From Boothiomyces macroporosus (taxonomy: Eukaryota > Chytridiomycota > Chytridiomycetes > Rhizophydiales > Terramycetaceae): 64,000 nucleotides of DNA. How positions within the stretch are numbered: the first letter of the stretch is position 1; each line of letters starts with the position of its first letter. The notes beneath the pieces were generated by a model. That model searched no databases and was not told the DNA's origin. It saw nothing but the letters and a program-made list of their open reading frames with translations. The stretch is from NCBI GenBank assembly GCA_027604185.1, contig JADGKB010000017.1:62001-126000 (forward strand), written 5' to 3'. A program made the translations under genes and the position numbers. Below, in pieces: positions 785 through 64,000 of this stretch.

Positions 785-2212
785 TTAAATTCTACTGCTA
801 CTGATTTCGGCAATTTTGCCACTAAGCTCTTTCCTCATGTACTCTTTATAAAACGTTAGACTCGTCGGAGGCAGTCCCCTAATCGAGGGGTCGGCAGCAT
901 TCCAAATGTCCAGCTGTTTGAAGTAGTTTTCATGAATGAATGCCAGCACTTGTTGCACTACTGGAAATAGCGCAACATTCCACACTTTAGAGTCTACCAT
1001 TTCTCTAATAACCTACATTTAAAGTCAAAGTACTATAATGTTGTCCTGCTGATCCATTGGCCACATAGTAGCGTTGTCATCTAGTATTAGCGGCTCCACA
1101 AAAGGAACATCATCACTTCTATTGGAATAAAAGGCAAACAAAGAGTTTAAATCTTTTGGGGGTCTTCTGGCATTTGGTAAATTGCCGTTTTGAGTTAAAT
1201 ATAAATATTCCCCACGGGCAGAGTATGCAACCCCTCCTCGGATAATTTGATTTTCTTGATTTAAAATCTGAGCCACCATATCTACATATGATTGATCTCC
1301 CAAAGAGCAAAGTGATATTTCATAGAGATTAGACGCCCAATTCAAGAATTCGTGAACCCTGTCTGCCAGAACTACCTTCCTGCCATCTTTCAACTCGCGC
1401 ACTCTGTGCATAACTAAATTAATCCAGCATTACCATGCTCGATATCTTGTTCGGGAACATATCTTCCAGGGGCATTTCCCACTACTCTAACTAGAGTGTC
1501 TATATGAGTTCTTTTTTACCATCTAAATCTAACACTAACGGCAATTTTCTAGTTCTCAGAAAGCTCTCTGATTGCTCTTCTATTACTTTTCTAATGTCCG
1601 CCGGCTTGCACAGATATCCAAAAATTACTCCTTTTGATGGTTTCAAGTGCAGTTCCCAGTCATCCCCGGTATTTGTTTCAACAAAGATTAGCTAATAATT
1701 ACCAATCTTTACAAAAGTGCTCTGTCTCATACCCGTAAGCTCCTGTATAAATGTATTTGGGATATCTGGATTGGCCAAATTGAACACAAATGTGTGGCCA
1801 ACCTTTAATTGATACAAAATTCCAAAGAATGATCGGGGTAACACTTTTTCAATGCTATATCTAGATTCAAGCTTGAATGAAATTGGTGATGGTTTGAGAG
1901 GAAATATCTCCAATGTTATCAAATTAACGGGTGAAGCTCCGTACTTTGCAGGAATCTCCAAATTTGGTTGCCATTTATTTGGTTGTACATACGACATGTA
2001 ATTAAACGTCAGGGCTGCATTAAATTACAGTTACCAGTATTTTGTTGCAGAAATGCAAAGTCACTTTGATTATTTTTGATTATCTCTCCAAGCTTCAGAA
2101 ACGCCTAAGATTAATTCGTGTATACATCTCTTATTGCTAAATCTGAAGATCTGCTGGGAGCATTCATTGAAATCGTCGGTCTGCGAAATATCTTTGGTGG
2201 TTGAGATTGCAT
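785..2212 (-). CDS. FCP1-like HAD (NIF-type) CTD phosphatase
   Basis: Six introns of 20-21 nt (2105-2125, 2015-2034, one near 1682-1712, 1500-1519, 1414-1433, 1013-1033) are removed to give 434 aa. The start is the ATG at 2212, 18 bp after the neighbouring stop, because two short exons upstream of 1997 read in frame. The catalytic motif LDLDDTLVRVVG (DxDxT) is created only by splicing intron 1500-1519. It is followed by the family pattern of a Leu-rich segment (HEFLNWASNLYEISLCSLGD) and a downstream LDDNATMW motif. The FCP1/SCP family removes phosphate from Ser residues, classically of the RNA polymerase II CTD. No BRCT domain is present, unlike canonical FCP1, so the substrate is uncertain. 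Residues 1-170 are not recognised. Confidence 0.75.
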
Positions 2213-2230
2213 TTAAAAAGTTAAAAATTA

Positions 2231-4776
2231 TCATAGTTGAGCAGATTTATTTACATTTACAAACTTGGCTCTGTCAACTTGGGAGATTCTTGTGCACCTG
2301 GTACCGATGTGGTATTTCAGCATGCCTCCTCGTTCCAAGTTCTCCTTGGCTCCTGGCTGGAGGATCAAGTATGAATGTGCAATCGTTTCATCGTCAAACA
2401 GTTCAATGCCTATTGGATATCTACCTTTTGAAGATAAATTGGCTTCAAATTTGAAGAATTTTCTCGGCTTTGGTGGAGGATTGAGCAACTGCATCGCAAT
2501 TCTTTCATTCCTGAGTTGTCTATTTCTCCTTATCCGGTTGTACAACAAGGATATCGAAAACAGCGCTATTAATACTAATGATAGAAGGGTAAAGTAATCC
2601 ATATGAGGTCCAGACGAAGTAACCACAACCTTTGATATTCTCAATGTATATGGTGTGCTAAAACCAATTTTAGACGAATCAAAGGGTATTGTGCTTGTAT
2701 CAGCAGGGCTAAAAAACCCTCCTTTATCATTCGCCCATGATATTCGAATGGTGATATAATATTGATCAGGAGCCGGGTTACTAGCAAACAGTAGTGCAGT
2801 TAGACTGGTCGGTGTATAGGGAAGCACCTCGAGCACAGTAATTCTTAAATCTGCACTAGAGTCGTAGTTAAAAAGTTGAATTTGATATTCATCCGATTCC
2901 AGATCGCTTTCTGTGGAATAGTAGTAATCTTGGTAACTACCATAGGTTAGTGTGCTAGTGTACAAGCTATTGAGCGTCAAATTTACTTGAATTAATTCTT
3001 TCTACCTCTTTGGCAGCTACCCGCTTGACTGCTCAAACACAAAGCATAATTTGATGGTAGCAACGTAGAATTCACGCCGGGCAAGGGGTAGCTATCCAAA
3101 CTGTACCCACAGAACCCAGGACACCAGTTGCAATATCCGATTTTCGAACACCTCTCACACGTATAAAAAGTTGAGCAGTAATTATTTACTAGATGTAAAC
3201 GCAAGAATACCTTTGCACAAATTCCTGCTTTGCGAATCCGAGCTGATTGTAATTGGAACTTCTAAAACATCACCGTGAAGTAAACCATCATTGCCTCCGA
3301 ATATAAAAATACTTTCATTTCTAACAATAACTGCTTGTCCTTTTCTGTGGAAATTTGTATCCAAGACACTCCACGAATTGCAAGCTAATTTAGCAAGTAT
3401 GTACGTAAATCTAGTACTTGTAACGAAGATTCAAAGCAAGCGTCAGTAGACGATGGAAGTATCCCACCATAGACGACAGCGTAATTGTCCCCGAAATAAT
3501 TTGCAGTTGACTGATATCTCACTTGGTCAACACTTCTTGGCGCAACTACAATCCAAATATCGCTGTCGATGGAGTATTCAAAAGTGTATAAAATGTGATT
3601 GTTGTAGTATTGATCATTTACAGGATACCCTGAAACTACCCTGATTGAGTTTGTTTCATTGACATATACAGCTTTTGCACCTTCATAACCAACAGGCCCA
3701 TCTCTAAGTTGCACCCATGTATTCGATATTGAACTATATCTGTAAAGAGAGTAAATTGCGTTGTAATCCCTTCCATCTATCCCGCCATAGATGTATAAAT
3801 CAAATGAGGATTGTTTCGGCACAAAAACAACCGCTGATTCAACCACAAATAGCAAGCTCTGAGGGAAAGATAATGCATTCAATTGAATCCATTCATTTAA
3901 ACCTAGTTAACAAAAGAATTACTAGGATCGTATTCCCACAAATCATGGTAAATATCGTAATTGTTGTAACCTCCAAACAAGTATAATTTGGAATTATAGA
4001 ACCATGTGTAATGATCCACTCTAAAATTATATTCATTTACCTAGCTGGAGGATTTATCGTGTTGATTAAAGTCCAGTTATTGGTTTTGAAATTGTAGGAC
4101 CAAAAATCAGATTTTATGGGCGATAAGCTATTCCAATCGGTTCCAAATGTAAGATATGCAATCTAATATTAGAGGGATGTTACATCGTTTTGGTTATCGT
4201 ATGCTGTAGAATGTCTTTCACGAGCTGAGTAGGAATTATTGTCATACTGACATAGTTTCCCAGAACTATTACTTGAGCAGACACACGATCCATTAACACA
4301 TACTCCATTTGGTCCACAGTTGTTGTCTGATAAAGTGCAATACTGGTTGCTATCTACCGTTAAATTTGAATACTCAATATCTGAAAGGTAGCATTAAATC
4401 CCCGTCTAACCCCAGAAACATCTGATATGAATGTAATTGCCAAAGTGCTTCCATCTGATACAAAAGTATTCTCCAAGTTCGAACTGGAAAATCTGTTTCC
4501 GCATAATTGAGCAATAGAAGTTGTCTGAGCGTAATCATTAGAAATATAGACATAATCGTAACCGCATTCTGTGTCAAAGTATTGGAATGACAGCTTTATT
4601 ATTGCTCCAGGGTCGGATGATGTTATGTACCATTTACACTGCGCGTCATTGAGATATGTAGGAGCAGACTGTGAATATATATACCCTACAGATACATCAT
4701 TGTATTCCGTATATGGGGCGCAATAACTCCCAGCTGTAAATCTTTTCAAAATCGCTAGTGTAAGCAAGTTTAACAT
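2231..4776 (-). CDS. Attractin-like type I membrane protein (CUB-EGF-kelch-PSI-TM)
   Basis: Seven introns of 20-22 nt give 800 aa. The order is: signal peptide (MLNLLTLAILKRFTAGS); CUB domain with FDTECGYDYVYI; EGF-like module C-GPNGVC-VNGSC-VC; kelch repeats with the signatures LYLFGGYNNYD, LYIYGGIDGRDYN and IFIFGGNDG; PSI-like Cys cluster CERCSKIGYCNWC; a Thr/Tyr-rich ectodomain; TM segment near FTLLSLVLIALFSISLLY; basic stop-transfer; cytoplasmic tail of about 100 aa with TRCTRIS. This order is that of animal attractin. Attractin-class proteins act at the cell surface in adhesion and signalling; the role here is unknown. It ends 18 bp before the start of the FCP1-like gene and diverges from the gene at 4962. 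Confidence 0.8.
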
Positions 4777-4961: not shown

Positions 4962-6530
4962 ATGTCCCTGAACGCCAAGGATAAATTTGCATTGATAGCA
5001 GTAGTAGGAGCCGTTGTCACTGCAGTTGTTTACTTTATTAGCACTCCTAATACTGTTGTCCATAGAAAAAAAAGAGTGCCAAGGAAGGCAGTTCAAAAGA
5101 AACCGAAACAGGAAAACAGAGAAGAAATTCAAATGGAGGCCATCGCATCCAGGGAAATTGAACGGAAAGTCCCAATTGCAAAAGTTATCGAGACAAAACC
5201 AAGTCCGACTTTTCAAGAAATTCACAATTCTGAAATCAGTAATTATTTCTACAAATCTGATAGTGGGATTGTCGGCTATAACCATCACCAAGACTTGGCT
5301 TTTCAATATGTTGCACCTGCTGATGAGGTATTGGAAATGGGATGCGAAACTGTTCACCTTGAAACAACAATATCAGCCACCAACAACAAAAATGAAATCG
5401 AATTGGTAATTGAACCTGAGTATATGTCCTATGAAGAGAGCAATTTTTGTTACAGCAGCGTCAGTTTATACTTGAATAATGATTGGGCATACGTGTCTCC
5501 TATTTCCAATGCTATGAAAGCAGATGTTGAAATCTCGATTGAAACAGAACCAGTTGTAGATTTGACTCTGAGCAAGTCTCTTGAACAGGAGGATGTGGCC
5601 GTGATTGACAATGTTGCAGATGTTTCAAGCAATGAAAGGAACACCAATTGTGGGCAGGATATTAAACCACATGAAGAAGTGAAATATTTATCCTCTCAAC
5701 AGGTCCTACATGGCGAACGATCAAATTACTTTTATCAAGTAGATGACCAAATGCTACTTAATTACACACAAACGGACTTTGAAGAAACTAAATCTGCCCA
5801 GCTTCACCATCAATCACCTCTGAATACCAAGGGTAAGTCGACCAAAAATCAGCCTGCAAGTGTAATGGATGCCCCTTCAAAGTCAAAGATTACCCCAGAT
5901 TTATTGCAGCATTCGGAAATTTCAAATCAGTTCTACCATCAGGATGGCAATTATTTATTTAATGTTCACCTCCTGCATGATTACCAGGACAAGTTTACCA
6001 GTCAGATTGGATTAAGCTCCACACCTGAAACTATCGGATTAAAGAAAGATCAATCTCCAGAGGATTTTGTATTCCATGGAGGAGTTCTTTTACATTCTGA
6101 AGAATCAAGCATGTTCTATGTAGAAGATGGTGAAATTGCATTTAATCACCTCTCATTGAGAGTTAGCCACTTGGATCAGCTGCCACTATCAACCACAACT
6201 GCAAAACCTAGTATGCTTCTAGTGGACGAATGCAGGTCGCCATCGGCAGCATCAACTGAGGGACAAATCTCTCCAACATGTTCGCCTTCACCCCAAGAGA
6301 AGACGCCATCCAGTCCCAAGCCAGTATTTCAAGCACCAAAGAATATCGCCCCAAATATCTCAAAGATCGTAGAACTTTACGAAAAGGAAGCTTTCAAAAG
6401 GAGGCGAAGTCAAAGTGAACCAGTCAAATGTAATCCTGACTTGACCATAGTGAAACTATCAAATCAAAAATCGCAAGAGACTCTAGTTAACGACGATGAT
6501 TCCATGTCTGATATAACTGCTGTCCAATAA
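4962..6530 (+). CDS. Membrane-anchored protein with five Ser-x-x-Phe-Tyr repeats
   Basis: A single exon encodes 522 aa. An N-terminal hydrophobic anchor (about residues 9-27) is followed by a Lys/Arg-rich segment, so the bulk is probably cytosolic or lumenal with a signal anchor. A degenerate repeat of about 22 aa occurs at residues 86-108, 247-268, 315-337 and 376-396, with a weaker copy at 155-175. Its core is (L/I)-H-x-E-x-S-x-x-F-Y-x-x-D-x, for example LLHSEESSMFYVEDG and LQHSEISNQFYHQDG. Spacers are acidic and low-complexity. The tail is Ser/Pro-rich with RRRSQSEP, a basophilic kinase or 14-3-3-like site. I recognise no family. It converges on YOS1 with a 10-bp gap. Confidence 0.75.
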   Translation: MSLNAKDKFALIAVVGAVVTAVVYFISTPNTVVHRKKRVPRKAVQKKPKQENREEIQMEAIASREIERKVPIAKVIETKPSPTFQEIHNSEISNYFYKSDSGIVGYNHHQDLAFQYVAPADEVLEMGCETVHLETTISATNNKNEIELVIEPEYMSYEESNFCYSSVSLYLNNDWAYVSPISNAMKADVEISIETEPVVDLTLSKSLEQEDVAVIDNVADVSSNERNTNCGQDIKPHEEVKYLSSQQVLHGERSNYFYQVDDQMLLNYTQTDFEETKSAQLHHQSPLNTKGKSTKNQPASVMDAPSKSKITPDLLQHSEISNQFYHQDGNYLFNVHLLHDYQDKFTSQIGLSSTPETIGLKKDQSPEDFVFHGGVLLHSEESSMFYVEDGEIAFNHLSLRVSHLDQLPLSTTTAKPSMLLVDECRSPSAASTEGQISPTCSPSPQEKTPSSPKPVFQAPKNIAPNISKIVELYEKEAFKRRRSQSEPVKCNPDLTIVKLSNQKSQETLVNDDDSMSDITAVQ

Positions 6531-6540
6531 ATTCTTTATT

Positions 6541-6817
6541 TTATCCAAATACAATTTCGTATGCAATCACCAATACGTTCAATATGACTAATGGTACTAA
6601 ATTAGCAACTCTTACTTCTAAGTAGTGTCCGGACCGCTGATATCATGTTTACTAGCTTATGTTTAAAGGAATTTGGATCGTAATTTGAATTTGCCAGTCC
6701 GACTAAATATTAATCCGGGTTACTTTGCGCCAAAAATCTCTCCTCGTTTAGTATGGCTACTGCGTTAATCAAGAGTAGAACGACATAGAACAGCGTCCCA
6801 AAGCCAAAAAGCAACAT
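6541..6817 (-). CDS. YOS1: Yos1/IER3IP1-type ER-Golgi membrane protein
   Basis: Two introns (6703-6723, 21 nt; 6597-6615, 19 nt) are spliced to 78 aa, the usual size of the family. The N-terminal TM reads MLLFGFGTLFYVVLLLINAV, then AILNEERFLAQIG, the conserved VNMISAVRTLLRIPLV segment and a second hydrophobic stretch ending YEIVFG. Yos1 forms part of the Yip1-Yif1 complex needed for COPII vesicle transport from ER to Golgi. The I-G and R-I-P codons are rebuilt exactly by the two splices, which supports both introns. Starts of this gene and of bL17m are 41 bp apart and divergent. Confidence 0.93.
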
Positions 6818-6858: not shown

Positions 6859-7730
6859 ATGAAGCATGGAGTAAGATTCTGGCAAAAGAAACTTGGAAGG
6901 AAGCCAAATCATCGTTTATCGCTGCAATCTAATTTATTGGCTGAATTGGTTGACCACGAGCAAATTCAAACGACAACCGCCAAAGCAAAGTTCATCAAGC
7001 ATGAAATGGAAAAAGTACTGGCTTCCTAATGTAGATTATTAATATGGCAAAGAAAGGAGCACCAAAGGATTTGGAGTACATTTCAAGCAAGTTGAATGGC
7101 AACAACAAAATTGTCCCAAAAGTCATGCACCTATTAGCAAAGAGATATCAAGACAGGAATTCTGGTTATGTCAGAATACTAAAGAATGGGTATCGAGGAA
7201 ACGGGTCGGATCGCGCTGCACTATCGATAATCGAGCTGGTGAACAATCCAAATGACATTGTTTACAACATGGCAAAGAATAATCTGTCCGTCTTGAAGGA
7301 AAAGTTGGACTCTATTGAATCACTCAAGTACAAGAAAACCGTTTTAAAATTAAAAGATTTAAGCAGCGGAGAACCAACAGAATTTGTGAATTTAGAAGAC
7401 AGACACGATATTGCTGGACGTGAGAGGAAAATCGCTAGTGCAAAAGAAAGATCGGCACACAAAGTTGTAGCTAAATATGAACGAGTTTTAAAGAGTTATC
7501 CAGAAGCCAGAAACGCGGATGAACAAGCAATTGAAAAATTAAAGGAAATGATTGAAAACAAAGCATATCCAAAGGATTTGCTTGATGGATTTGTGCAGCC
7601 GGTTAAAGCAGAAATGAAGATCAAAGAGCTTGAAGAGCCTGTAGAAGTAAAGGAAGTCGTAGTTGAGAAGGCCCCTGAACCATCTAAATCCTTCATGGAA
7701 AAGTATTTTGGGAGATTTATGAAAAAATAA
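6859..7730 (+). CDS. Mitochondrial ribosomal protein bL17m
   Basis: The start is the MKHG methionine, the conserved N-terminus of bacterial L17. One 20-nt intron (7015-7034) joins HEMEK to IINMAKKGAPKDL. The protein is 283 aa, with the L17 core in about residues 1-130 (LGRKPNHRLSLQSNLL, the QTTTAKAK segment and the GNGSDRAALSIIELV end). The extra C-terminal 150 residues are charged and predicted helical, as in fungal mitochondrial L17 proteins. It is a component of the mitochondrial large ribosomal subunit near the exit tunnel. No clear targeting presequence precedes the core. Confidence 0.93.
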
Positions 7731-7819: not shown

Positions 7820-8718
7820 ATGGAAAGATATACTCCGCTGGAAATATTTCTTGACAAATACAGCGCTACCCTGGCAGCTTCCACTGCGGGGATATGTAGT
7901 GTAATGTGTGGATACCCGTTTGATTCCCTTAAAACCAGAATGCAAGCTTACAGATACAAATCTACAACAGAGTGTATTCAGCATACCGTAAAACAGGAAG
8001 GATATTTGGGGTTCTATCGAGGAGTCGTTCCGATATTAGTCTCTGTATCAGTGTCTAGATCAATATCATTTTCAATATATGTTAAATCAAAAAAATATTT
8101 CACCAAAATATTCAGTAATACCACCAAATTCCAATCACTTATGCTTTCTTCGCTGATATCCGGCGGGATAACTGGTGGGGCGGTTGCGTTATTTAGTGCC
8201 CCTATCGAGTTTATTAAAGTGCAGAGACAACTGGAAGGATCAAAACTACAGAAAAACACGTTGGAATGGGGTAAATTCATTTTCAAGAATCACGGATTAT
8301 TTGGGTTTTACAAGGGATTACCTCTTCATTTTCTTCGCGACGTATTTGGAACAGGGTGTTATTTTACAATTTACGAAACATTCAAATATGCTAGTATGCA
8401 GTTTCTGCAGCCGGGTCCAATGGTTCACTTGGTTGGCGGAGGCGTGGCAGGAGCCCTTAGCTGGATTGTACTCTTTCCTATAGACCTTTGCAAGAGTGTG
8501 ATGCAAAGAGAAGCACTCAAACCTCATCCGCAATACCAGTCAGTGTTTGAGTTTATCAAGCTGAGATACTCCAATGAGGGAATTTATGGATTTTACAGGG
8601 GAATTTCTCCTCAATTGGTCCGAAGCTTTCCTGTGCATGGGATTAATTTTATAGGTAAATTTGAGCTAATTTAGTACTTGAGAAGGTGCTGTCTTATTTA
8701 AGAATCGAAAAGAGTGAT
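7820..8718 (+). CDS. Mitochondrial carrier family (SLC25) transporter
   Basis: This is 292 aa after removal of one 20-nt intron (8655-8674). Three tandem Solcar repeats carry the carrier signature: GYPFDSLKTR (residue about 35), APIEFIKVQ (about 130) and FPIDLCKSV (about 220). Each is followed by a gly-x-FYRG/FYKG block. Six TM helices are expected in the inner membrane. The first two signatures resemble the amino-acid/carnitine-type carriers, but the substrate cannot be assigned from sequence alone. The splice rebuilds the C-terminal helix FIVLEKVLSYLKNRKE. It lies 89 bp after bL17m and 65 bp before the SEL1L gene, all on the same strand. Confidence 0.88.
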
Positions 8719-30569: not shown

Positions 30570-33500
30570 ATGTCCGAATTTCAAAACTTGCTCATGATCT
30601 CAGAATCGGACGACAAGAGTGAGAAAATATTTCAAAACCATGTTTTATCAGTGTGTAATGCATTGGGCGGGCATGAACAAGATGTATATATTCCTGGGGA
30701 CGAAGCTTATGGTAATCAATACTGATGCAGACTGTCTGCGTGATCTAAAACGATTCATCAAAATGGATGAAAATGAAGGAACAAAGAACGCTCATTTTTT
30801 ACTTGGGAAATGGAATATAATGACATCGGATTTGATCCCACTGTTTTTGCATTCGGCTGCAGATCCAGATATTACAAAGGAGAATATGCGAATATCCCTA
30901 GGGTCTCTGGATGTCATGGTTAGTTTAACTATGCCACTAAAAGAACGGGATAACACCTTTAATCAATTTTACATGACTTACAAAGGAGGGTTTTTAAAGA
31001 CAGGATTTTGGAAAGCAGTCTTGAATGTTATAGTGCACCTGCTCTCTACTCCCCAACAGTGATCTTGTTGTTAATCGTAGTAAAAGAGATGAACTGCACA
31101 AGCAAAAGCTCCTCTTACCAATCACGCTAATCAGAAATATCCTTGCTATTGATGACATTCAAGAATCTACAGCAATGTCAAATAATCAATACGTAAAATC
31201 CAAGTTGCAGGAAGAGCTGGTAGAAAAGCTGAATCAAGAAGGTGTCATTGAATTCATCATGTCACTTGGCGGTTCACTGACAGACTTTGAATATAGGAGC
31301 TTAAATACCCTTACTTTGGAAATTTTTCACCATATATTCTATGGAAGAAATATTGATGACTTTTTCCAAACTTCTGGGACTGCAAAGTCTAATTTGCAGG
31401 ACATGCTAAAGAAAGAAAAGCTGTCAAGGAAAGTAATTGTTAATCTAGGAAAGCGACAAACACGAGACACTCCAGATTTGGAAGTACCTATGCAATCAAA
31501 ACCAATAGTGGCCAGCAAGTTCACACGACTGCAGTACCCACACAAATTGGGCTGACATTGGACAAGACCAAAAAACCAAACACTCGAAGTACCAAATATG
31601 AGGTAATCCAGACTTATATTAGTTTGACAATGTAATTGAAAAACCTTTTGTTCTGAATAGCTCAGTAGTTACCCACAAAGAAATACTGTTTAATTTTTAT
31701 GAGAATTGCTTTAACGGTAAATATTGCTGAAGTAGTCGTTATGGCATCTGTAAAAAGGGATTTTGACATCGACTCTACTTCTGTCATTGATGAAGATTAT
31801 AGACACTATTTTTCAGTCCTTGGGTTCATGCTTGCTTACTTTCTTGAGCTTCCAAATGTAAATCTCGATTGATTTAGAATGAACGATCGTTTGAAAACAT
31901 TGCTGGAGTAATCAACTATCCTACTGTATACTTGATATTCAAGAAGCTTGATACCTACCGGTCAGAAAAAGTATCACTTTTCTAACTAAAGAATTGGAAA
32001 GATTTGCAAACCACCTTGGTTGCATTTCGAAATATGGTATTTTCTTAATAATTTAGCTACTTGTGATCGATATCATGTACAAATCAAATCTAAATGATTT
32101 GATTGATTTATCGGTTCAATTACTGAGCAATCTGTTCTATGAACAAGGAAATATTCATTTGCTTGTAGGTCTTACCAGAGATTCTGCTCCAAGGGGACAA
32201 AAGTATTCTTAATTAACGAGATATCTGCAGGTTTTGGTAGAAACTATCCATACTGTTTTTGATCTGTTAAAGAACAATTTCCGTAATGGTATTGTGATCA
32301 GACGCAAAATTGACAGGCCAGCTGGTAATATTGACTGATTGTTAGGAGATGATGGAAATGACAGTGATGATGAAGCATTTCAGCAAGTTTCTTCTGAAAG
32401 AGTTATGAGCGTATCACAGTTCGAAAACGTACTTTGGATTAATGATAGTTATTTGGTTACGAATCTGTAATTGCAACATATATTGCGCTTTTAGAGTATT
32501 ATGAAGTTCTCTCGGAGAAATATATCAAATATATCCTCGAAATGCTCCAATGTATTTCCAGCACTGATCAATGCGATAAAGAAGCACTCTTGTATCAAGT
32601 AAATTGTAGACATAATCTAAGGCTCACACATTCCATTTGTTCAATAGAATATCACACAGCCCTCTTTCAAAGGCTAGTAAATTTACAGAATTGGTGGCCT
32701 TTATCAATCTTATAACCTCCGCAGCAATTAAAAGACTGTCAGAAAACCCCACATTGGTTTTGGAGCTATTTTTTTCGAAAACTAGGAGCGATTGTATTAG
32801 AATTATGAACAATCAGTTTGAGACTGAAGATTTCGATGAATATTTAAATGAGGTAACTCCCTTTTAAGCAAGATTGCTGGAGATACAGAAGAAAAAATAA
32901 CAGAGAAATATTCAGTACCAGCGACGGACAAGGGGTAAAACTAATTTTTAATCTAGTGAATTACTGCAGCAAATCAGATCCCTTTCAGAATTAATTAGAA
33001 AAAATCCAAGAGGAAAATTGTTGGTTAAATGGATTTCTCGGGTTCGTCAAATTTAACTTAGATCATGCGTCTAGTGATGCACGATGATTTGGATGACTTT
33101 GCTGTTAATAGAGAAAGCGGAATATTAGTAAGTAACTTTATTTGGGAATCAGCCGCTCCGTATGATGCTGAAGAGTTTCTCACAAAAGAATCCGTACAAT
33201 ATTTGATGAGCCTCTTGGGTTTTACTAAATTTGAAGATACATGGATGTTTCCAAAAGAAATAGAGTTGGAAACAATTGAAAATTTGGAAAATCTCAGTTT
33301 GTTCTCCAAAACCACAAAGTTAGGCAAAGGTATAAAGCGTACTGCCAACGCTCTTGAAAACAGCGTGGACAGTAGTACTAATATCCCGTTGGAAAAGTCC
33401 CCATTAAAAGTAATCATTTTTAATATAGCAAATTGCCGAGCCTATCACAGAAATATTCAGTAGCGATAAAGTCGAAATGCCAGTTGATTGGGAGGAAGAC

Positions 33501-33605
33501 GGAGATGATTTTCAGCAGAGTGAACTTGAAAATAGCAAGAAGAAACGTGCTAGGATAATTGAGGTAATCTTTAGTTCATTCCAGTTTTCTGACGAAGACG
33601 ATTGA
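30570..33605 (+). CDS. TOF1: TIMELESS/Tof1/Swi1 replication fork protection protein
   Basis: About 17 introns of 18-26 nt can be placed, leaving 894 aa. The N-terminal TIMELESS domain begins LLMISESDDKSEK and contains DCLRDLKRFIKMDENEGTKN, LIPLFLHSA, SLDVMVSLTMPLKERD and LPITLIRNILAIDD. Splicing then gives TRHSRFGSTYAIK, the strongly conserved HSRFGGT block. Downstream are YFSVLGFMLAYFLELPN, HTVFDLLKNNF and TLVLELFFSKTRSDC, matching VELLFWKT of the family. Tof1-Csm3 travels with the replisome and mediates checkpoint signalling and fork pausing. The third intron (26 nt, donor GTCAAG) is the least certain. The last 21-nt intron is optional since it has no stop. Confidence 0.88.
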
Positions 33606-38984: not shown

Positions 38985-40964
38985 TTAACCTTTTTTTTTA
39001 TTCTTTAAATCCAAGGTTGCTTTGGTTACTGCCACGGTTGGTAAAATGTTTCCTATGATTAGCACTCAGTACCTTTCGAAGCGGTAGCGATTTCCGCCAA
39101 GTTTTCATTCCTGGTGAGATACCTGGTAGAAATTCCTTTAGGGATCAGAGAGGTTTTCAATAGTGAATCCAATTGATTTTGCAAGCGCTGTACTTGTTTG
39201 TTATGCTTCTCGAGGGATTCCTGTTCAGCTTCCTGGTCAGAATCATCAGAAACCAAAATATCTGCTTCTTCGGCTGCCTTTTTGAACCAGTCTTTAGAGT
39301 TTTGAGACTTCTTTTGCTTGTGTTTCAACTGGTCAAGCTGGCGAGCAATAGTCAGTCTTTGTTTCAAGACGGATGTTATCGAACCATCTACTGGGAAGTC
39401 GTCGATTTGATCTAATTAATACTATTTTACCTCTTTTCAGCGTGTAACAAATCTTTTTGTACAGAGTCTGCTCTTCAGGAGAACAAAGCATAATACTCAC
39501 TCCCTCGCTATTCAACCCTCTTGCGGTTCTTCCAGATCTATGCACATAAATTTCTGCAGATCTTGGGAGTTGATAATGGATGACATGGTCAACTAATGGA
39601 ATATCCAATCCTCTGGAGGCTACATCGGATGCAATCAACACTGCATTTGGAGCTTCCTTAAACCTTTCAAGATTCTTGATTCTTTGTTTTTGTTGCATTT
39701 CTGCGTGTATTCCATAGACATCTGGCAATAGCAGTGATAAAATTGGTACCAATCTACGGATAGCATCAATACTGTTAACAAACACAATGCTTTTGCCTAA
39801 GTACCTGCACAATATATAATAAACCATCAAATCTTTGTCGGTTTTCAAACAGTCAATCTTTGATTCAATTACTCCTTTTGCTGTAACTTCTTTTCGAGAA
39901 ATGTTTACATAAATCGGAGACTTGTCTCTGAACTCAATTTTGTCAATCAAGTTTTCCAAAAGAGCACCTTCGCCAGTAGTCGATTTTGATTTCTTGACTT
40001 TCTTGTTTTTCAAATTTGCAGATTCGATCATGGTAGCTGAAAAGATGAAAGTCTGTCTTTTAATTGACCTGATTTCGTCTTCACTCAGTTTGCTAACAGA
40101 AATTGCACTAATAATTTCATGCAAATCTTTAAAGTGGCCAGCTTCGAGCATTCTGTCCGCTTCATCCAACACCAAGAACTTGATTTTCACCAATTTTTCA
40201 ATAAGCTCTGGCGTCTATGTTAATTTATATTACTGTTTGCATAATCGCCCACAGCCGTCCTGGCGTTGCTACTATGACATCTGGTGTTTTGGAAATTAGC
40301 CTATTTTGCTTTTCGATGGACATACCTCCAACAATTGGTACCACATACTTGGATAGATTCGAACCCGCTTTTTTTAAATGTTCTGTGACTTGCAGTGCCA
40401 GTTCTCTTGTCGGGACAAGGATAAGTCCTGTCACGCAGTCCAACTGTTCAGTTTCGTTTGCCAAATAATTTAGTATCGGTAATCCAAATGCCAAAGTTTT
40501 CCCAGAGCCCTAAAGTTAATTCAAAATACTGTTTCTGCGGCACCAATTACGTCTTTATGATGAACAATTGAATGTTTCAAGGTTTGTGCCTGAATTTCAG
40601 TCGGCCTAGTATATCCCAACTCTTTCAGATTGTTCAAAATAACTGAATGTAGATTGTAGCCGCTCCAAAGCTCCATACCAGCGCTGTCAATTGCTTCTGG
40701 CTCTGTTTCCTTTGGTATATCAACTGCCGTCATCTTTTTCAGCTTTTTTGGCTTCTCCTTTTCTTTCTCAGCAAATTCGTCCAACGGAATGAAATTTGAC
40801 AAATCCAAATCGTCCTCAACCTCGTCTGCGCTAACAAATTTCCGCTTCTTAGTTTCTGGAGTGCTCTGCATCAACTCTTCCTCCGTAATCTCCTCTAAAG
40901 AGTAAAAGCTGGCATCTGCACACCCAAGGAATTTATTTGTCTTTACTGGCTTCCACTTTCCCAT
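38985..40964 (-). CDS. MAK5: DEAD-box RNA helicase, DDX24/Mak5 type
   Basis: It encodes 633 aa; four introns (20, 19, 19 and 20 nt). The start is the ATG of MGKWKPVKTNKF, the usual Mak5/DDX24 N-terminus. Helicase motifs in order are RPTEIQAQ (Q), AETGSGKT (I, made by splicing 40510-40529), PTRELALQ (Ia), TPGR (Ib), DEAD (II), SATM (III), IASDVASRGLDI (V) and HRSGRTAR (VI). The region between II and III holds a Lys-rich insertion typical of this subfamily. After the core comes a coiled segment with DWFKKAAEEADI, also in DDX24. The family works in 60S ribosome biogenesis. Starts 23 bp from the divergent TRF4 gene. Confidence 0.92.
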
Positions 40965-56959: not shown

Positions 56960-57754
56960 ATGTCTGCAATTATTTCACTACTTGTTTCTGCCGCACTATC
57001 CCAAAGCGTTACCGTTTCCAATGTTCAAACTTCAGCCATTGCCAGTGCAACTGGTGCTGCTGTAACTACTGTTGCAGTCACTACTACCACTAATGCACCA
57101 ACTGCAACTACTACCAATTCAATGTCATTCCCAACTGGAATTGATTATGGATTTCAGAATTTATCTGCTGGATGTCAAGCTGCCATCCAAAAATACGAAA
57201 ACTCCAGCCCTCAAGGATGTAACCTACCACAACAAGTTAGCGTGACTAATATTACCGCAGGATCATATGGCAGCGCGCTTTCAACTTTGAACAATCAAAA
57301 CTTGGATGCCGTTTGCTCTTCTACCTGCCAAGCCTCCATTAAACCTATCGCCTCTGATATCGCTGCAGCTTGCAAGAATGACAACATGTACTTCCAATAT
57401 TACTCTCAATTGATGACTGCCTTCTTTGATGTTGCATGTGTTAAAGATGGCTCTGACTATTGCCTGGTAAAAGAAGTTCAAGACCTTACTCCAATTCTCG
57501 TTAACCATGCACCAATTGAATCTTTGATTCAAAACACCACTTTTCTTTGCAGCAAATGTATCTACTCGCAAATCACTGTATTGGATAAGGATATTACTTC
57601 TTTCCCACAACAAATGCAGCAAGAATATACAGCCTTCTCAACCAACATCAAGAGCCAATGTTCTTCACAATACCAAAAGTTTACCTCCAGTGCTATTGCG
57701 CAACCAGTTTCATTGCTCGGCGCGCTCTCCTTGGTATTTATTGCGTTCTTTTAA
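56960..57754 (+). CDS. Secreted cysteine-rich GPI-type protein, tandem paralogue A
   Basis: An intronless 264-aa protein. Signal peptide MSAIISLLVSAALSQS, then an Ala/Thr-rich linker of about 45 residues, then the shared cysteine domain. Its blocks are CQAAIQKYENSSPQGC, LDAVCSSTCQASIKPIASDI, ACKND, FFDVACVKDGSDYC, TTFLCSKCIYSQITVLDKDI and CSSQYQKF. About ten Cys are conserved with paralogues B-D. The C-terminus is hydrophobic after small residues, as in GPI signals. No known family recognised. Absence of introns is notable against the intron-dense background. Confidence 0.8.
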   Translation: MSAIISLLVSAALSQSVTVSNVQTSAIASATGAAVTTVAVTTTTNAPTATTTNSMSFPTGIDYGFQNLSAGCQAAIQKYENSSPQGCNLPQQVSVTNITAGSYGSALSTLNNQNLDAVCSSTCQASIKPIASDIAAACKNDNMYFQYYSQLMTAFFDVACVKDGSDYCLVKEVQDLTPILVNHAPIESLIQNTTFLCSKCIYSQITVLDKDITSFPQQMQQEYTAFSTNIKSQCSSQYQKFTSSAIAQPVSLLGALSLVFIAFF

Positions 57755-57857
57755 ATAAATAATTTTTGTCTGTATTCTATGTGGTTTGGTGTGATTGTCA
57801 CAATCTCCATAACCAGAATTTCCAAATGCGGCGATAAAACAGCTTTTACTTTTTGTA

Positions 57858-58619
57858 ATGGCATTATTCATTTCATTCATTGCTGGACTAGTAGCAGCTC
57901 AAAAGAGCAACGCTACCGCTACTCTCAACACTACCGTTTCATCGAATTCAAGTACTACTGTTGGGGGCTCAACCATTCCATTTAACACCACCCAAACAAT
58001 TCCAACTTCAAACTCATTCAACCAGACCCAAGCGTTCAACAGCTTGTCCCCACAATGTCAAGCAGCAGTAAAAAAGTACAATGGCACCACACCACAGGGT
58101 TGCACAGATATCCCACAACAATCCACTAATTTTAACATTGACGCAAACGAATTGAATTCTTTGAATACAAAAGAATTGGATGGTATTTGTGTACCTGCTT
58201 GCCAATCGTCAGTCAAGCAAATGGCTTCTGAAATTTCCACTGCTTGCAAAAACGACAGTCCAGACTATCAATACTTGAGTGCCTACATGACAGCTTACTT
58301 TGATGTCTTGTGTGTCAAAGATGGCTCCCAGTACTGCATTTCTGAAGAAATTCAGGGAACAGTTTCTGCTTTACAACAAGGAAAGTCTCCCATTGAACTT
58401 ATTTCAAATACTACCTTTGCGTGCACAAAGTGCTTTTATCAACAACTTACTGCCCTTGATACGGACATTACGGCGTTTCCGAATATAACTCAACAAACAT
58501 ACAAAACTTATTCCAGTATCATTCAGGGAGAGTGTGCCAGCCAGTTTAAAGCATTCGCATCCTCAGCTGCAACTTATTCATCAATAACCCTACTTGGATT
58601 CGTCATTTCATTGCTTTAA
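57858..58619 (+). CDS. Secreted cysteine-rich GPI-type protein, tandem paralogue B
   Basis: Intronless, 253 aa, same layout as A: signal MALFISFIAGLVAAQ, Thr/Ser/Asn-rich linker, then CQAAVKKYNGTTPQGC, LDGICVPACQSSVKQMASEI, ACKND, YFDVLCVKDGSQYC, TTFACTKCFYQQLTALDTDI and CASQFKAF, and a hydrophobic C-terminus. It begins 103 bp after A. A and B are the closest pair in the array by eye. Function unknown; a surface or wall role is inferred from the signal and anchor. Confidence 0.8.
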   Translation: MALFISFIAGLVAAQKSNATATLNTTVSSNSSTTVGGSTIPFNTTQTIPTSNSFNQTQAFNSLSPQCQAAVKKYNGTTPQGCTDIPQQSTNFNIDANELNSLNTKELDGICVPACQSSVKQMASEISTACKNDSPDYQYLSAYMTAYFDVLCVKDGSQYCISEEIQGTVSALQQGKSPIELISNTTFACTKCFYQQLTALDTDITAFPNITQQTYKTYSSIIQGECASQFKAFASSAATYSSITLLGFVISLL

Positions 58620-58825
58620 ATAAAGAGAAATTCTAGACATATCTCTATTGGTTTAACTGTATAAACCACATCTCTAGTTATATTGGTTTCATTGATGAAG
58701 TGATTAAGCTGCCACATGAATACACAACCGCTTCATTTGTGTTTGATTGATGGCGCATAATTTTAATGCTGCAAGCCTCTGTCTGGGCTCAAGAGTAAAC
58801 TGAGGCAGTTAATTTTTGACAAAAA

Positions 58826-59497
58826 ATGGTCTTGGCGATACTATTAGCTTCCTTTACTCTAGCACAATCATTAAACACTACCGTTAATCAACCACCACTT
58901 TCTACCGCTTGCCAAGCAGTGTTGCAAAAATACGCAAACGCAACTCTTGCTGGATGCACACTTCCACCACAAACTTCAGCAGCAAACTTGACATCCTTGA
59001 ACGCAAACTCGTTGAATACGCTTACAAGCGCTCAAAACTTGGATGGTATTTGTGCTTCCACTTGCCAATCTTCAATCAAAGCAGCTGCAACTGATATTGG
59101 AAATGGGTGTGCCAATGACAAGATTGAAGGAATGTTTTCTTATTCGCTTGCGCCAGCAGCAGTTACAGCATTATTGGATGTTGGGTGTTACAAAGACGCT
59201 GGGCAGTACTGCTTGATAAGCGAAGCAAGTATTCTTTCCAGTGCACTTGGCAACGGAACTGCAAGCACTGCTTTGCTCACTGATCAAAACTTGGTATGTA
59301 CAAAGTGTATGATGAACCAGCTATTGATTTTGGACAAGGACATTACTGCTTTCCCTACCGATATTCAAAATGAATACAAAACATTTGCCACCATGATTAG
59401 AAATACTTGTGCAACACAATACAAGTCATACTCTTCCGGCGCATTGTCTGCTTCAATTGGACTGGCTGGGTTAGTTTTGGCAAGTTTGCTCCTTTAA
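58826..59497 (+). CDS. Secreted cysteine-rich GPI-type protein, tandem paralogue C
   Basis: Intronless, 223 aa, the shortest member because the linker is nearly absent: signal MVLAILLASFTLAQS is followed at once by CQAVLQKYANATLAGC. Shared blocks are LDGICASTCQSSIKAAATDI, LLDVGCYKDAGQYC, LVCTKCMMNQLLILDKDI and CATQYKSYSSGAL, then a hydrophobic tail. It shows that the cysteine domain, not the linker, is the conserved unit. Confidence 0.8.
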   Translation: MVLAILLASFTLAQSLNTTVNQPPLSTACQAVLQKYANATLAGCTLPPQTSAANLTSLNANSLNTLTSAQNLDGICASTCQSSIKAAATDIGNGCANDKIEGMFSYSLAPAAVTALLDVGCYKDAGQYCLISEASILSSALGNGTASTALLTDQNLVCTKCMMNQLLILDKDITAFPTDIQNEYKTFATMIRNTCATQYKSYSSGALSASIGLAGLVLASLLL

Positions 59498-59533
59498 CTC
59501 AGTGGTTTTCGATGGTCTTTGATTGCCACTCGC

Positions 59534-59542
59534 TATATAAAG
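59534..59542 (+). promoter_or_regulatory. TATA box of secreted paralogue D
   Basis: TATATAAAG lies about 23-31 bp upstream of the ATG at 59565, in the 67-bp spacer after paralogue C. Confidence 0.4.
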
Positions 59543-59564
59543 AAAGCCAAGCGAATAAAACTCG

Positions 59565-60515
59565 ATGAATTCAATTATATTATTATTTAGTTCAGTACTA
59601 GGTCAATCCAGCGAGAGTGTCGCGCTCCCTACTGGAATACCATTGGACTCTATTCCGTTAGTTGGAGTGCCAGTGGGGAAAGCAGTACCAACAACAGCTA
59701 ATGCTATTCCAACAAACAATCCTCCGACAATCGGAAATTTACCTCCCAGTACAAGCTCTACAACTGCTGCTCCACTACCTCCAACCACTATAGCACCTTC
59801 AAACCCCACCACTGTTCCATCAACTGCAGCTACCCCATTACAGTCATCCACTCCAGGCCAAGTTCTTCCATTAAAAGGAACTGGTACATTAATCAGTGCA
59901 GGAACTGGACAGCAACTAACTCTAAACCCAATAATTTCCAGTAACTGTAAATCAGCCTTAAACTCACTTACTGCTCCATCTTGCTGGTCTGTTCCAAACA
60001 TACCAAACTTTCTATCTACCAATTTGAATATATCCCAGTTAGGTGGTGCATTTGATTCAATTTGCAGTGATACATGTCAATCAGCTCTGGCAGCAGATAT
60101 TCAAAGTGTAGATCAGGCTTGCGGATCGATTCCAGTCTACGCTTACTGGACAGCAAAACAAGTATTGGCAATCTCGCAAGCTCTGATTGCGTTTTCTTGC
60201 GTAAAAGACCCCTCGTCGGGAAATTATTGCCTTGGTTCAGAGTACTCTATCGTCTCTACTTTGCTTGCAAGTGGGACTAGTCCATCTTCCATCCTAGCAA
60301 ACACCACTATTACGTGTTCCAAGTGTGCATACAATCAAATTGCAGCTATTCAAAAGGAATATTCCGAGTTGGGTTCTGGCACAAGTCAAGTTCTGAATTC
60401 ATCTGTTACTCAACTTCAAAACCAATGTGGTGCCCAATACAAGTCTTACCAATCGTCCGCCATCTCAGTATCTACCGGAATACTGTTTGTTTTGCTCCTG
60501 AATGTACTACAATAA
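59565..60515 (+). CDS. Secreted cysteine-rich GPI-type protein, tandem paralogue D (mucin-like linker)
   Basis: Intronless, 316 aa. After the signal (MNSIILLFSSVLGQSS) comes a Pro/Thr/Ser-rich linker of about 90 residues, typical of heavily O-glycosylated stalks. The cysteine domain is the most diverged of the four: CKSALNSLTAPSC, FDSICSDTCQSALAADIQSV, FSCVKDPSSGNYC, TITCSKCAYNQIAAIQKEY and CGAQYKSYQSSA. It ends in a hydrophobic GPI-like tail. The linker length varies from none (C) to long (D), which suggests display of the same domain at different heights on the surface. Confidence 0.78.
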   Translation: MNSIILLFSSVLGQSSESVALPTGIPLDSIPLVGVPVGKAVPTTANAIPTNNPPTIGNLPPSTSSTTAAPLPPTTIAPSNPTTVPSTAATPLQSSTPGQVLPLKGTGTLISAGTGQQLTLNPIISSNCKSALNSLTAPSCWSVPNIPNFLSTNLNISQLGGAFDSICSDTCQSALAADIQSVDQACGSIPVYAYWTAKQVLAISQALIAFSCVKDPSSGNYCLGSEYSIVSTLLASGTSPSSILANTTITCSKCAYNQIAAIQKEYSELGSGTSQVLNSSVTQLQNQCGAQYKSYQSSAISVSTGILFVLLLNVLQ

Positions 60516-60561
60516 ATTGCTTCAATTATCTGTAAATTTTCCTCTTGCTTTTTTCTTGCAA

Positions 60562-61304: not shown

Positions 61305-61953
61305 ATGTTGCATAAACTAGTTATCTTGGGAGATGGTGGGGTAGGAAAGACCGCCCTTACGATACAATTTTGTCGCTCGCAGTTTATTGGTAATTCTAAT
61401 TGACAGTAGAGGTAAGCTTCAACTGACAAGTTTTATGATCCTACAATAGAAGATTCGTATCGCAAGCAAGTGGTAGTAGATAGGCAGCCTTGCATTCTTG
61501 ATATACTGGACACTGCGGGTCAGGAGGAATTCGTTTCGTACTTTATATTTGACATAGGCTTCGGGATCAGTGGATAAAAGATGGAGAGGGATTTCTACTT
61601 GTATATTCTGTAACTTCAAGGAGATCATTTGACATGATTGAAGGCTTAAAACAACAAATTATGGATGTAAAGGAAACCGAAAATGTACCAATAGTCATAG
61701 TTGGAAACAAATGCGACAAGAAAGAGAAAGAGGTTTCATATGCGGATGGAGTAGCATTGGCAGCAAAATTGTCAAATAACAGTCATATTGGATTTGTGGA
61801 AACTTCGGCAAAGACAGCTTTCAATGTTGACTTGTAATTTGTTTTAACAGCAGGGCTTTTTATACACTGATCAGATCTATAAGGGGAAACGGTGTGTACA
61901 TGAAGAAGCAGAAGAAGGAAAAGAAGGAAAAGACAAAGTGTTTAATCTTGTAA
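61305..61953 (+). CDS. Ras/Rap-like small GTPase with CaaX box
   Basis: It encodes 189 aa after four introns (61390-61409, 61412-61430, 61538-61557, 61834-61853; 19-20 nt each). Motifs: P-loop [10 protein letters not shown], switch [24 protein letters not shown] and ETSAK. The tail is Lys-rich and ends CLIL, a CaaX box of geranylgeranyl type. Between the first two introns only two bases (AG, 61410-61411) are retained, completing the Glu of [11 protein letters not shown] at the exact length seen in Ras and Rap (FVEKYDPTIED). Any single canonical intron across this span breaks the frame. GTPases of this class control growth or polarity signalling. Confidence 0.88.
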
Positions 61954-61978
61954 ACTAGCATTAATAAATTTGAAGAGT

Positions 61979-64000
61979 TTATTTTGAATTTTTGATGAAT
62001 TTGGAAACCAAATTAGGATCTTTGATCCCTTTAGAAGCCTCTACCCCTGAACAAGCATCTACAAAGACCGGTTTCAACTGACTTGCTTCCTTGACATTTT
62101 CTGGTGTGAGACCGCCTGCCAATCCTACTGGAATTCCTAATTCAGCCAGCTTGCTGACTAAAGACCAATCAAATGTATGGCCTGTTCCACCAATTGCGCT
62201 GGGAGTAGTTGTATCTAAAAGAATGGCTTTTGCACTCAACTTGTAGCGCTCGACACCAAGAACAACTTGGTTGAACACATCTGTTGCAGATGCATCCACA
62301 CCAATCACTTGAATAACGGGTTTGTTTAAAAGCTTGTGGAATTGAACTGATTTTGGTTTGTGTAATTGTATATAGTCCAAATTACAGAATGCAGATATTT
62401 CATTAATTTCAGCTGCGGTATGGCTAGTAAAGACTCCAACGATTGCTGGTCTTTGATCGAATTTCTGGGTTGAAAACCATTCAGATGATGTGATTGGAAT
62501 CGTTAAAAGGTTAGAATCGCCCAAAATCTTTTCAGCTTTTGGGTAGACTGCTCTAATTGCATCGACAATGGTTTTTGCAGCATCTTTGGTTACATATCTA
62601 GGAGATTTTTGTTCAAAGATTAAACCAATAAAGTCTGCTCCGCCATCACAGGCGTGTAATGCATCTCCAATGTTTGTAATCCCACAGATCTTTACTTTTT
62701 GAGAAGCGCCGTCAGGTTTTCTCGCACCAAGGAGCTCTTTAACCATCTCTGGCTTGTTAGCAGCTCTCATCAACGCTTCTCCAACCAAAACACCTTGTGC
62801 ACCAGAATCAATGTAGGTTTCAACATCTTTTCTTGAAGTAATTCCACTTAAGGCCAATAAAATAATATCAGAATTTTCAGTCAAGGCTGAAAGAGTTGTA
62901 GTTCTGTTCATGTCAACTTGGAAAGTATTCAAGTCTCTATTGTTGACACCAATTACTTTAGCTCCCAAGTTGATTGCCCTTTTCATTTCAGACACCGCAG
63001 CTACTTCAACTAGCGGCTCCATGCCAAGATTTCTAGAGTAATCAATCAATTTAGTCAGCTGTGCATCTGTCAGCATTGCCACAATCAACAGTACAGTGTC
63101 GGCTCCTATTGTTAACAATAATCACCAGCTAAACGTGCTTCAAGGATCTGATATTCGTCAAAAATAAACTCTTTACGAAGAACGGCAGGTCGGTTAGTCA
63201 ATCTTTCTAAGCTAGCCCTAACTGTTTGCAGATCAGCTATAGATCCTTTGAACCAATTTGGCTCCGTCAACACTGAAATACATGCAGCACCACCATCTGC
63301 ATAGAGTAGCGATTGTTGCCCAGCATGTGCGTACATGTCAATCTCTCCTTTGGAAGGAGAAGCTCTCTTCACCTCTGCTAAAACCGCTACTCCGTGTTGA
63401 TTAATGGACTGTTTAAGTCTGTCAGGAAAAGAGATTAGAGTAGGTGCCAAACCAAGCGCATACGATCGTTCAAGATAAGCCATGGAGAACCCTGGAAGAT
63501 TTTTTTGGTCGAATACATCCTTGATTCTTTTTTGGTAAATCTTTTGCAAGATTGATTCATTCTCCACTTTTAACTGTGCAGGTTTGGCGGTAGAGTTCAT
63601 CTTGGAAGCCAAGTGTAATGGAATACCATGACCCACATCCTCCTGCTCTTCTGATTTTTGAGTGAATTTCAGATTATCTCTATTGACTTTGAGCTCTGAC
63701 CACAGTCCGCCTTCCCATGATAAGAAATTGGCAAACATTTTCTCGCCCTCTTCGCTTGCAATACTTTCCGGATGGTATTGGACACCCTCCATGACAAACT
63801 GCTTGTGTCTTACACCCATTATAATTCCACTTTCAGTCCATGAAGTTACTTCCAGTTCCTTTGGTAACGTCTTTGGTACTCCAGAAAGAGAATGGTATCG
63901 CGTACATTCAATATTCTGCGATACTCCGTCATACAATCCTTTTCCATCATGCTGCACCGGTGTAGTTTTTCCATGAATCAATTCTCCACAAGGAGCAACC
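61979..64000 (-). CDS. TRP1: Trifunctional tryptophan enzyme (GATase-IGPS-PRAI), N-terminus outside window
   Basis: The frame runs off the right edge. One 20-nt intron with donor GTGATT (63106-63125) joins EARLAG to ADTVLLIVAML. Domains in order: C-terminal half of the anthranilate synthase glutamine amidotransferase (RYHSLSG and MEGVQYHPESI carry catalytic His and Glu); indole-3-glycerol phosphate synthase (VLAEVKRASPSKGEI, VLRKEFIFDEYQI, IGVNNRDLNTF, LSGITSRKDV); phosphoribosylanthranilate isomerase (VKICGITN, DFIGLIFEQKSPRYV, VGLAGGLTPENV, DACSGVE). This G-I-P fusion is a hallmark of filamentous and other fungi. It performs three steps of tryptophan synthesis in the cytosol. Confidence 0.95.

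Follow-up and report, generated by a model that had tools for sequence, protein, structure and literature searches.

Gene models and predicted introns

The studied window is a stretch of 64,000 nucleotides (nt) of one contig (C17:62001–126000) from a genome of 15,203,306 bases (15.2 Mb) in 216 contigs. It carries 45 model genes, among them those for a Timeless/Tof1 protein, a Ras-family GTPase, a DEAD-box helicase, and a TRP enzyme, and 33 of these genes on both strands contain a total of 126 predicted introns, most of them close to 20 nt long. The coordinates are listed in Table 1. Introns of 17–23 nt make up 123 of the 126, with a mode of 20 nt (17 nt, 1; 18 nt, 1; 19 nt, 14; 20 nt, 62; 21 nt, 33; 22 nt, 10; 23 nt, 2), and the lengths of 26, 31, and 37 nt occur once each. 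The first-pass annotation of this DNA had placed about 118 introns in 29 genes, nearly all of 18–23 nt with a mode of 20–21 nt, and both the number and the length class are borne out by the final models.

The models were produced with a gene finder that was built for the analysis and takes account of codon usage, start and stop codons, and introns carrying a partial codon. Models with introns of up to 200 nt merged adjacent genes, and introns were therefore limited to 40 nt for the final counts; gene starts were also made cheaper to reduce the fusion of neighbors. A spliced length divisible by three is built into such models, and the independent test is the homology at the junctions, not the frame.

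Beyond the window, 20 stretches from 20 contigs (195 kb in total, the contig of the window included) were sampled, and 16 kb around the genes for Prp8, U2AF65, and SF1 were added later. The G+C content of the 20 stretches is 0.37–0.41, and they look like one organism on this basis. Of the 284 introns predicted beyond the window, 281 are 17–23 nt long. All sampled DNA (275 kb) contains 410 introns, 404 of which are of 17–23 nt, at a density of 1.76 per kb of coding sequence. The best match of Prp8 is the protein of Boothiomyces sp. JEL0866, a chytrid (Rhizophydiales, Terramycetaceae), with 99% identity over a long exon. The stretch had been described as fungal-type from its letters, and Prp8 places it near this rhizophydialean genus.

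Table 1. Positions of the predicted introns, of the genes and junctions compared with homologs, and of the tandem units. Plain numbers are window positions; C and L numbers denote contigs and sampled loci.
Feature	Position	Strand	Basis
Intron-bearing stretch	785..63125	both	final gene models; length peak against decoys
Predicted introns	6430-6450 7015-7034 8655-8674 9562-9581 10143-10163 10695-10715 22813-22832 23490-23510 24809-24827 24887-24906	+	final models
Predicted introns	25018-25037 25293-25315 25378-25396 26455-26471 26498-26528 26663-26682 30712-30730 31059-31080 31423-31448 31603-31622	+	final models
Predicted introns	31717-31735 31858-31877 31971-31991 32037-32056 32203-32220 32325-32345 32429-32448 32599-32621 32853-32872 32935-32956 33042-33061 33410-33428 33564-33584	+	final models
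Predicted introns	41167-41186 41358-41377 41587-41606 41816-41835 41873-41892 42113-42132 42908-42927 43387-43408 44041-44061 44270-44290 44420-44440	+	final models
Predicted introns	45157-45176 45265-45284 45352-45388 45398-45417 45473-45492 46251-46271 54172-54190 55982-56001 56140-56158 61390-61409 61412-61430 61538-61557 61834-61853	+	final models
Predicted introns	1013-1033 1414-1433 1500-1519 1692-1712 2015-2034 2105-2125 2986-3005 3189-3210 3385-3404 3903-3922 4021-4040 4163-4183 4354-4373	-	final models
Predicted introns	6597-6615 6703-6723 11471-11491 11957-11977 12523-12542 14870-14889 15052-15072 18061-18080 18315-18336 18466-18487 21652-21672 24212-24230 24490-24509	-	final models
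Predicted introns	27194-27213 27818-27837 28173-28192 28396-28415 28661-28681 28780-28800 28940-28960 29054-29073 29141-29161 29446-29467 29985-30005 30340-30359	-	final models
Predicted introns	35197-35218 36528-36547 36769-36790 36874-36894 37158-37177 37559-37579 37783-37803 38221-38242 39053-39072 39412-39430 40215-40233 40510-40529	-	final models
Predicted introns	46752-46771 47029-47048 47154-47174 47268-47287 47777-47797 48521-48540 48852-48871 49230-49249 49475-49493 49598-49617 49774-49793	-	final models
Predicted introns	50016-50036 50205-50224 51379-51398 53415-53434 53501-53519 54483-54503 55209-55229 63106-63125	-	final models
Timeless/Tof1 (topoisomerase 1-associated factor 1) gene, 17 predicted introns	30570..33605	+	relatives aligned
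18-nt Timeless intron	32203..32220	+	gapless in Terramyces protein P0241
20-nt Timeless intron	32429..32448	+	Terramyces sp. JEL0728 protein P0241 keeps VNSSNCQ (seven extra residues); P0243 gapless
20-nt intron in AETGSGKT stretch (Walker A), DEAD-box helicase	40510..40529	-	gapless with 5ivl and 11aa
19-nt intron, same DEAD-box helicase gene	39412..39430	-	gapless with 5ivl
Ras-family GTPase gene, four predicted ultra-short introns	61305..61953	+	best match KRas, E 6.7e-59
20-nt Ras intron, first of pair in switch I	61390..61409	+	39 nt must go; gapless with KRas
Predicted 2-nt exon AG, Ras switch I	61410..61411	+	frame and switch I length
19-nt Ras intron, second of pair	61412..61430	+	39 nt must go; gapless with KRas
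20-nt Ras intron	61538..61557	+	junction gapless with KRas
20-nt Ras intron	61834..61853	+	junction gapless with KRas
20-nt intron, indole-glycerol-phosphate synthase/PRA isomerase (TRP) gene	63106..63125	-	junction gapless with 1pii
Dimer introns, 38-43 nt	L005:89-131, L016:6978-7015, L017:8325-8364, L034:1358-1396		exact split, AG/GT between
Topo II 40-nt pair	L031:2308-2347		removal of both units gives NAADNK-VRDPSM, gapless with human Topo II
Trimer of 19-nt units, two identical	C8:114397-114453 (L047, C8:114251-114650)		pattern match
Trimer of three different 19-nt units	C6:28632-28688 (L048, C6:28451-28850)		removal gives VFDHNAW-DNVEF
38-nt pair	C41:27782-27819 (L049, C41:27601-28200)		pattern match only

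Length signal against controls

The preferred length can be seen independently of gene models. On both strands of the window, GT..TAAY..AG segments number 56 at 20 nt against 23 in shuffles and 40 at 21 nt against 21, with ten dinucleotide shuffles as the baseline. The other lengths in the compared range of 12–60 nt depart far less from the shuffles, and the same count with TAAR in place of TAAY gave no 20–21-nt peak in the window.

The gene finder was also run without a length assumption, using flat length priors. With a prior of 12–100 nt and no site model (window plus 8 loci), 40 of 83 GT–AG introns were 19–22 nt long, whereas 13 other dinucleotide pairs placed only 1–6 of 55–79 introns there. 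GT–AG also gave the best total score among the 14 pairs. When site models were trained by iteration under the same prior (window plus 20 loci, 259 kb), 296 of 372 GT–AG introns fell at 17–23 nt with a mode of 20 (134 introns), compared with 36 of 342 for GT–TG, 58 of 326 for AT–AG, and 26 of 325 for GA–AG after identical training. A flat prior of up to 64 nt placed 334 of 379 introns at 17–23 nt, and no length between 24 and 64 nt held more than four. Because GT–AG gives the length peak and the decoys do not, the length class is a property of the sequence rather than of the method. The GT–AG ends are specific to the length signal, as is the case for major (U2-type) spliceosomal introns. The population is ultra-short in the sense that its bulk lies below 25 nt and within a few nt of each other.

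Splice sites and branch site

The 5' site of the sampled introns is GTA, with A at position +3 in 90%, and the next bases are mostly A, T, and T. G at +5 is found in only 13–14% of introns, despite the canonical 5' end of the U1 RNA (AUACUUACCUG). The introns are 71% A+T and usually end in TAG. With mismatches allowed, 400 of 405 introns of 17–24 nt could be given a branch A. Of these 400, 315 have the A at position 14 or 15, 326 have it 5 or 6 nt ahead of the final G, and 383 use the first AG downstream of it as the splice site. The motif would be able to pair with U2, its A being near the 3' end. The information content of the sites is approximately 5.8 bits for the six donor bases and 6.8 bits for the final ten bases, and the effective number of lengths is about four. 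A motif ending 2–5 nt before the terminal AG had been proposed in the first-pass annotation. The branch-like motif near the 3' end stands, and the distance is narrower: in 242 of the 367 introns of the first trained set, the TRAY motif ends 4–5 nt before the intron end (2–3 nt before the AG), and 73 of the 367 have no such motif.

Homology at the splice junctions

The gene model of Prp8 (locus L034), which runs off the end of its stretch, has predicted introns of 20, 19, 21, 21, and 22 nt. Within about nine residues on each side, the five junctions are gapless in 112, 118, 110, 115, and 117 of the 120 listed homologs, which come from fungi, animals, plants, and protists. The deposited Prp8 of Boothiomyces sp. 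JEL0866 (P0121) fits at four of the junctions; the first intron is retained in it as the seven residues LSFTNCR, at a site that is gapless in 112 of the 120 homologs. In Timeless, six of 20 relatives were aligned, and 14 of 17 junctions are gapless over the same distance in at least one of them. At the junction of the intron at 32325–32345, a gap is located 7–8 residues away. The deposited Boothiomyces Timeless (P0242) is short of residues at several junctions. The predicted segments are missing from homologous proteins at the exact junction in Prp8 (5 of 5), Timeless (14 of 17), and Topo II, and the junctions of the Ras and TRP genes listed in Table 1 give the same picture. Deposited proteins of two close relatives (Boothiomyces and Terramyces) are without most of the introns checked, and one intron is retained in each as spurious residues. 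Their annotators had already spliced most of these introns, imperfectly. Some of the deposited proteins of these fungi are corrupted by gene models in which such introns were kept or left out.

These data also bear on the possibility that the segments are assembly or sequencing errors which break reading frames and into which GT–AG ends have been read. Errors can in general cause apparent frame breaks, but they would not insert pieces of 19–22 nt with a GT start, a fixed branch-like motif, and an AG end. Nor would they explain why the decoy dinucleotides lack a length peak or why most of the checked pieces are absent from the deposited proteins of the two relatives. We give this explanation virtually no credence; it had been named beforehand as a finding that would overturn the introns, and the motif and homology evidence excludes it here.

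Several observations weigh against reading every predicted segment as an intron. In addition to the introns lacking a TRAY motif, about one-tenth of the predictions score low, and the cut-off that keeps 364 of 405 introns also passes 127 exonic decoys; at the median score, 203 introns pass and one decoy does. In Timeless, the 26-nt prediction at 31423–31448 has no support from relatives, and the 20-nt intron at 32853–32872 is only predicted, the alignment of the relatives being indecisive there. Of the four junctions of the DEAD-box gene, two are gapless, one is beside a gap of 2–3 residues, and one is beyond the alignment. Single weak predictions may therefore be wrong.

Splicing machinery of the same genome

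The genome contains U6 with ACAGAGA and two copies of U2, each with GUGUAGUA. U1 was found at C34:106388–106550 (L037) with 68.8 bits, just under the Rfam cut-off of 69.5. Prp8, SF1-HH, Isy1, Cir_N, and Saf4/Yju2 matched above their cut-offs. The U2AF65 model gave E 1.1e-67 in an exon-by-exon search, and its 230.7 bits fall short of the curated cut-off of 310.3; the weaker of its 25 matches are probably other RRM proteins. An N-terminal stretch of the joined U2AF65 model resembles the U2AF35-binding ligand, and U2AF35 itself matched in four pieces at C1:324316–324904. Cwc25 starts with MGGGDLNLKKSWHP; its MGGG is intact, and the alignment with solved Cwc25 chains begins at residue 1. In Isy1 (L040, C39), the best alignment with a solved Isy1 starts at residue 37, and the model is uncertain in its first exon. 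One reading of that exon, among others, includes a possible 1-nt exon. The small nuclear RNAs (snRNAs) U1, U2, and U6 and the core factors that were looked for are present in the same genome. The survey of U2, U6, SF1, and U2AF suggested in the first-pass annotation accordingly returned matches to all four, and U1 and Cwc25 can be added.

Removal by DNA elimination, as for the internal eliminated sequences (IES) of ciliates, or by ribosome bypassing would dispense with the spliceosome. The narrow lengths would suit the former, since the shortest IES are similarly uniform. On the other hand, GT–AG ends with a branch-like motif 5–6 nt before the 3' terminus are in keeping with the U1, U2, and U6 of this genome, and fungi are not known to have an IES system. 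We regard such a route as very improbable.

Proposed mechanism

There is direct support for the lengths, motifs, and frame, for the homology, for the spread across the sampled stretches, and for the splicing factors looked for. Here, we propose that the segments are ordinary major (U2-type) spliceosomal introns that have shrunk in a chytrid lineage to near the minimum of the spliceosome, a reading to which we assign a probability of about 95% from the sequence evidence. Ultra-short spliceosomal introns account for the length peak with its GT–AG specificity and for the branch motif, and also for the homology that is restored and the spliceosome parts that were looked for and found. The order of recognition, splicing in the cell, and two-step chemistry on a small lariat are what we infer beyond this. 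The intron is laid out as GTA, a mostly AT-rich filler, a YTRAY-like branch motif with its A at position 14–15, and 5–6 further bases up to the intron end, which is usually TAG. Recognition would occur by intron definition inside a single footprint of ~20 nt, in which U1 would bind the 5' splice site first, followed by U2 at the branch site. The next AG would serve as the 3' splice site. A polypyrimidine tract has no room. The catalytic core would then hold a lariat loop of 14–15 nt with a tail of 5–6 nt.

Tandem intron units

Among the longer introns are some that consist of exactly two or three ~20-nt units, with an AG/GT joint and no exon between the units. Four of the 12 model introns of 36–46 nt split exactly into two complete units, compared with none of 7147 GT..AG stretches of 36–46 nt in spliced coding sequence; the eight units of the four dimers were among the 405 introns that trained the score. 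One dimer (L017) lies in a gene with a weak match to an endosulfine-type protein (E 0.081), and the alignment has a one-residue gap next to the junction. The arrays on C8, C6, and C41 were picked from a genome-wide pattern. No homology was found for the protein surrounding the C8 trimer. The protein of the C6 trimer matches METTL6, the match beginning 15 residues past the joint, and its joined motif is presumably typical of METTL2-like proteins. In the switch I region of Ras, 39 of 41 nt must be removed, and we read them as two units of 20 and 19 nt. Abutment of two complete units at AG/GT is accordingly predicted at several loci, and trimers extend the series.

Two broader searches gave excesses as well. 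A 321-kb scan found 5, 4, and 3 abutting pairs of high-scoring units at three cut-offs, where the means per spacing of 4–60 nt were 0.63, 0.32, and 0.14. An abutting pair in U2AF35 (L046) that was counted at every cut-off was rejected, its first half having proved to be coding. The genome-wide tandem pattern gave 154 matches versus 44 for a reversed control, and 17 of the 100 matches listed had zero spacing versus a mean of 2.8 per spacing of 1–30. However, 27–29% of introns follow AG, versus ~6% estimated from base composition, and the exon consensus by itself would therefore produce part of the zero-spacing excess. Neither the scan nor the pattern is counted as proof. The case for predicted tandem units rests on the 36–46-nt decoy test and the homology cases.

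The simplest origin of the arrays is intron duplication. Stacked units of this kind suggest unit-by-unit removal. In recursive splicing via zero-nucleotide exons, the AG/GT abutment regenerates a 5' splice site. Stwintrons likewise place more than one intron at one position but are nested; the units described here are instead ~20 nt long and stand head to tail, two or three at once. The arrays could also be single introns of ~40 or ~57 nt with internal repeats that are removed in one step. Homology shows only the loss of whole arrays, as in Topo II, the two identical units of the C8 trimer are those of a simple tandem duplication, and the genome-wide zero-spacing excess could stem partly from the exon consensus. 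This explanation fits less well with the exact splitting of four in 12 introns against no exonic stretch, with the Ras gene, in which a 2-nt exon would be left between the units, and with the near absence of introns at every length from 24 to 64 nt. The last two points favor unit-by-unit removal. We put one-step removal only a little short of an even chance. We also put forward, tentatively and as rather less than an even bet, a model of quantized splicing, in which the spliceosome would remove essentially only units of ~20 nt and would process tandem arrays unit by unit via zero- or 1–2-nt exons because longer introns could not be defined. With the tandem arrays, intron definition and recursive splicing can be put to a natural test on the smallest of scales.

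Comparison with known systems

The heterotrich ciliate Stentor coeruleus has introns of 15–16 nt, in which a branch A at position 10 is followed by a tail of 5 nt (PMC9505925). The introns described here resemble them in the narrow length class, the A+U-rich composition, the GU–AG ends, and snRNAs that include U6 with ACAGAGA (PMC9505925). The tails after the branch A are also similar (5 nt in Stentor, 5–6 nt here), whereas the branch A is at position 10 in Stentor and 14–15 here. Since Stentor combines a 10-nt loop with a 5-nt tail, a tail of about this length is apparently a lower limit common to both. In Stentor, a strong branch consensus is lacking, and genes with introns mostly hold one each (PMC9505925); here, the motif is clear and the introns reach the density given above. 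It has been proposed for Stentor that loss of the glycine plug of Cwc25, together with a diverged Isy1 N terminus, may avoid a clash with the tight loop (PMC9505925). The glycine motif missing in Stentor is kept here, and the intact plug counts against its loss as a general need of short introns. This suggests a link of the loss with the 10-nt loop or with the history of the ciliates, not with short introns in themselves.

According to PMC10245619, introns of 15–16 nt in heterotrichs, 16–17 nt in mikrocytids, and 18–21 nt in a chlorarachniophyte nucleomorph are already known. Ciliates and the nucleomorph had been correctly named as precedents in the first-pass annotation, and mikrocytids are to be added from the same text. 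Nucleomorph introns have nearly the same length range as those described here, but the nucleomorph is a relict algal nucleus with more than 800 introns in about 300 genes, whereas the present genome is a nuclear one of 15.2 Mb. Mikrocytid introns are many and uniform, as here; their spliceosome is strongly reduced (17–19 proteins found; PMC10245619), whereas every splicing factor looked for is present here. Among fungi, a survey of 644 genomes calls the Cryptococcus mean of 63 bp relatively short (PMC8476143). Cryptococcus neoformans is intron-rich like the present fungus, and its introns are about three times longer.

Among the literature matches listed, in which subscription journals and preprints are thinly covered, none described introns of ~20 nt in a fungus. 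The word "intron" does not occur in PMC5701793, PMC10716661, and PMC10470594, and the available portions of PMC12913720, PMC12075339, and PMC11797018 contain nothing on short introns. Ultra-short introns are known already. A fungus that has them, retains the early factors looked for, and also carries stacked units would be a new variation on this theme, stacked and recursive introns being outside the literature search. This chytrid brings the fungi into the ultra-short intron populations with a 15-Mb genome that keeps the splicing factors looked for. The lineage is presumably culturable, if it is as near Boothiomyces as Prp8 indicates. The case helps to separate the demands of very short introns from the effects of extreme genome reduction, and such introns, whose length is near that of the shortest on record, provide a new test case for a splicing machinery with almost no room.

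Other features of the window and assembly

Four adjacent intronless genes at 56960–60515 of the window encode secreted-looking, cysteine-patterned proteins with hydrophobic C termini and are apparently tandem paralogs. At 33634–36536, two adjacent paralogous reading frames have a common FYSYYNAFHLNK..LFQTQIYLK..RYIHRLHVLNPLTNSDIIGNV segment. In the assembly, C20 has pairs of matches that are identical or equal in score at 66653 and 111720 and at 74242 and 119309, with a constant spacing of 45,067 bases, and C36 has them at 46891 and 89075 and at 45043 and 87227, with a constant spacing of 42,184 bases. C49 and C100 (L042 and L043) carry another such pair. These pairs point to large duplications or to haplotypes that were left unmerged in the assembly.

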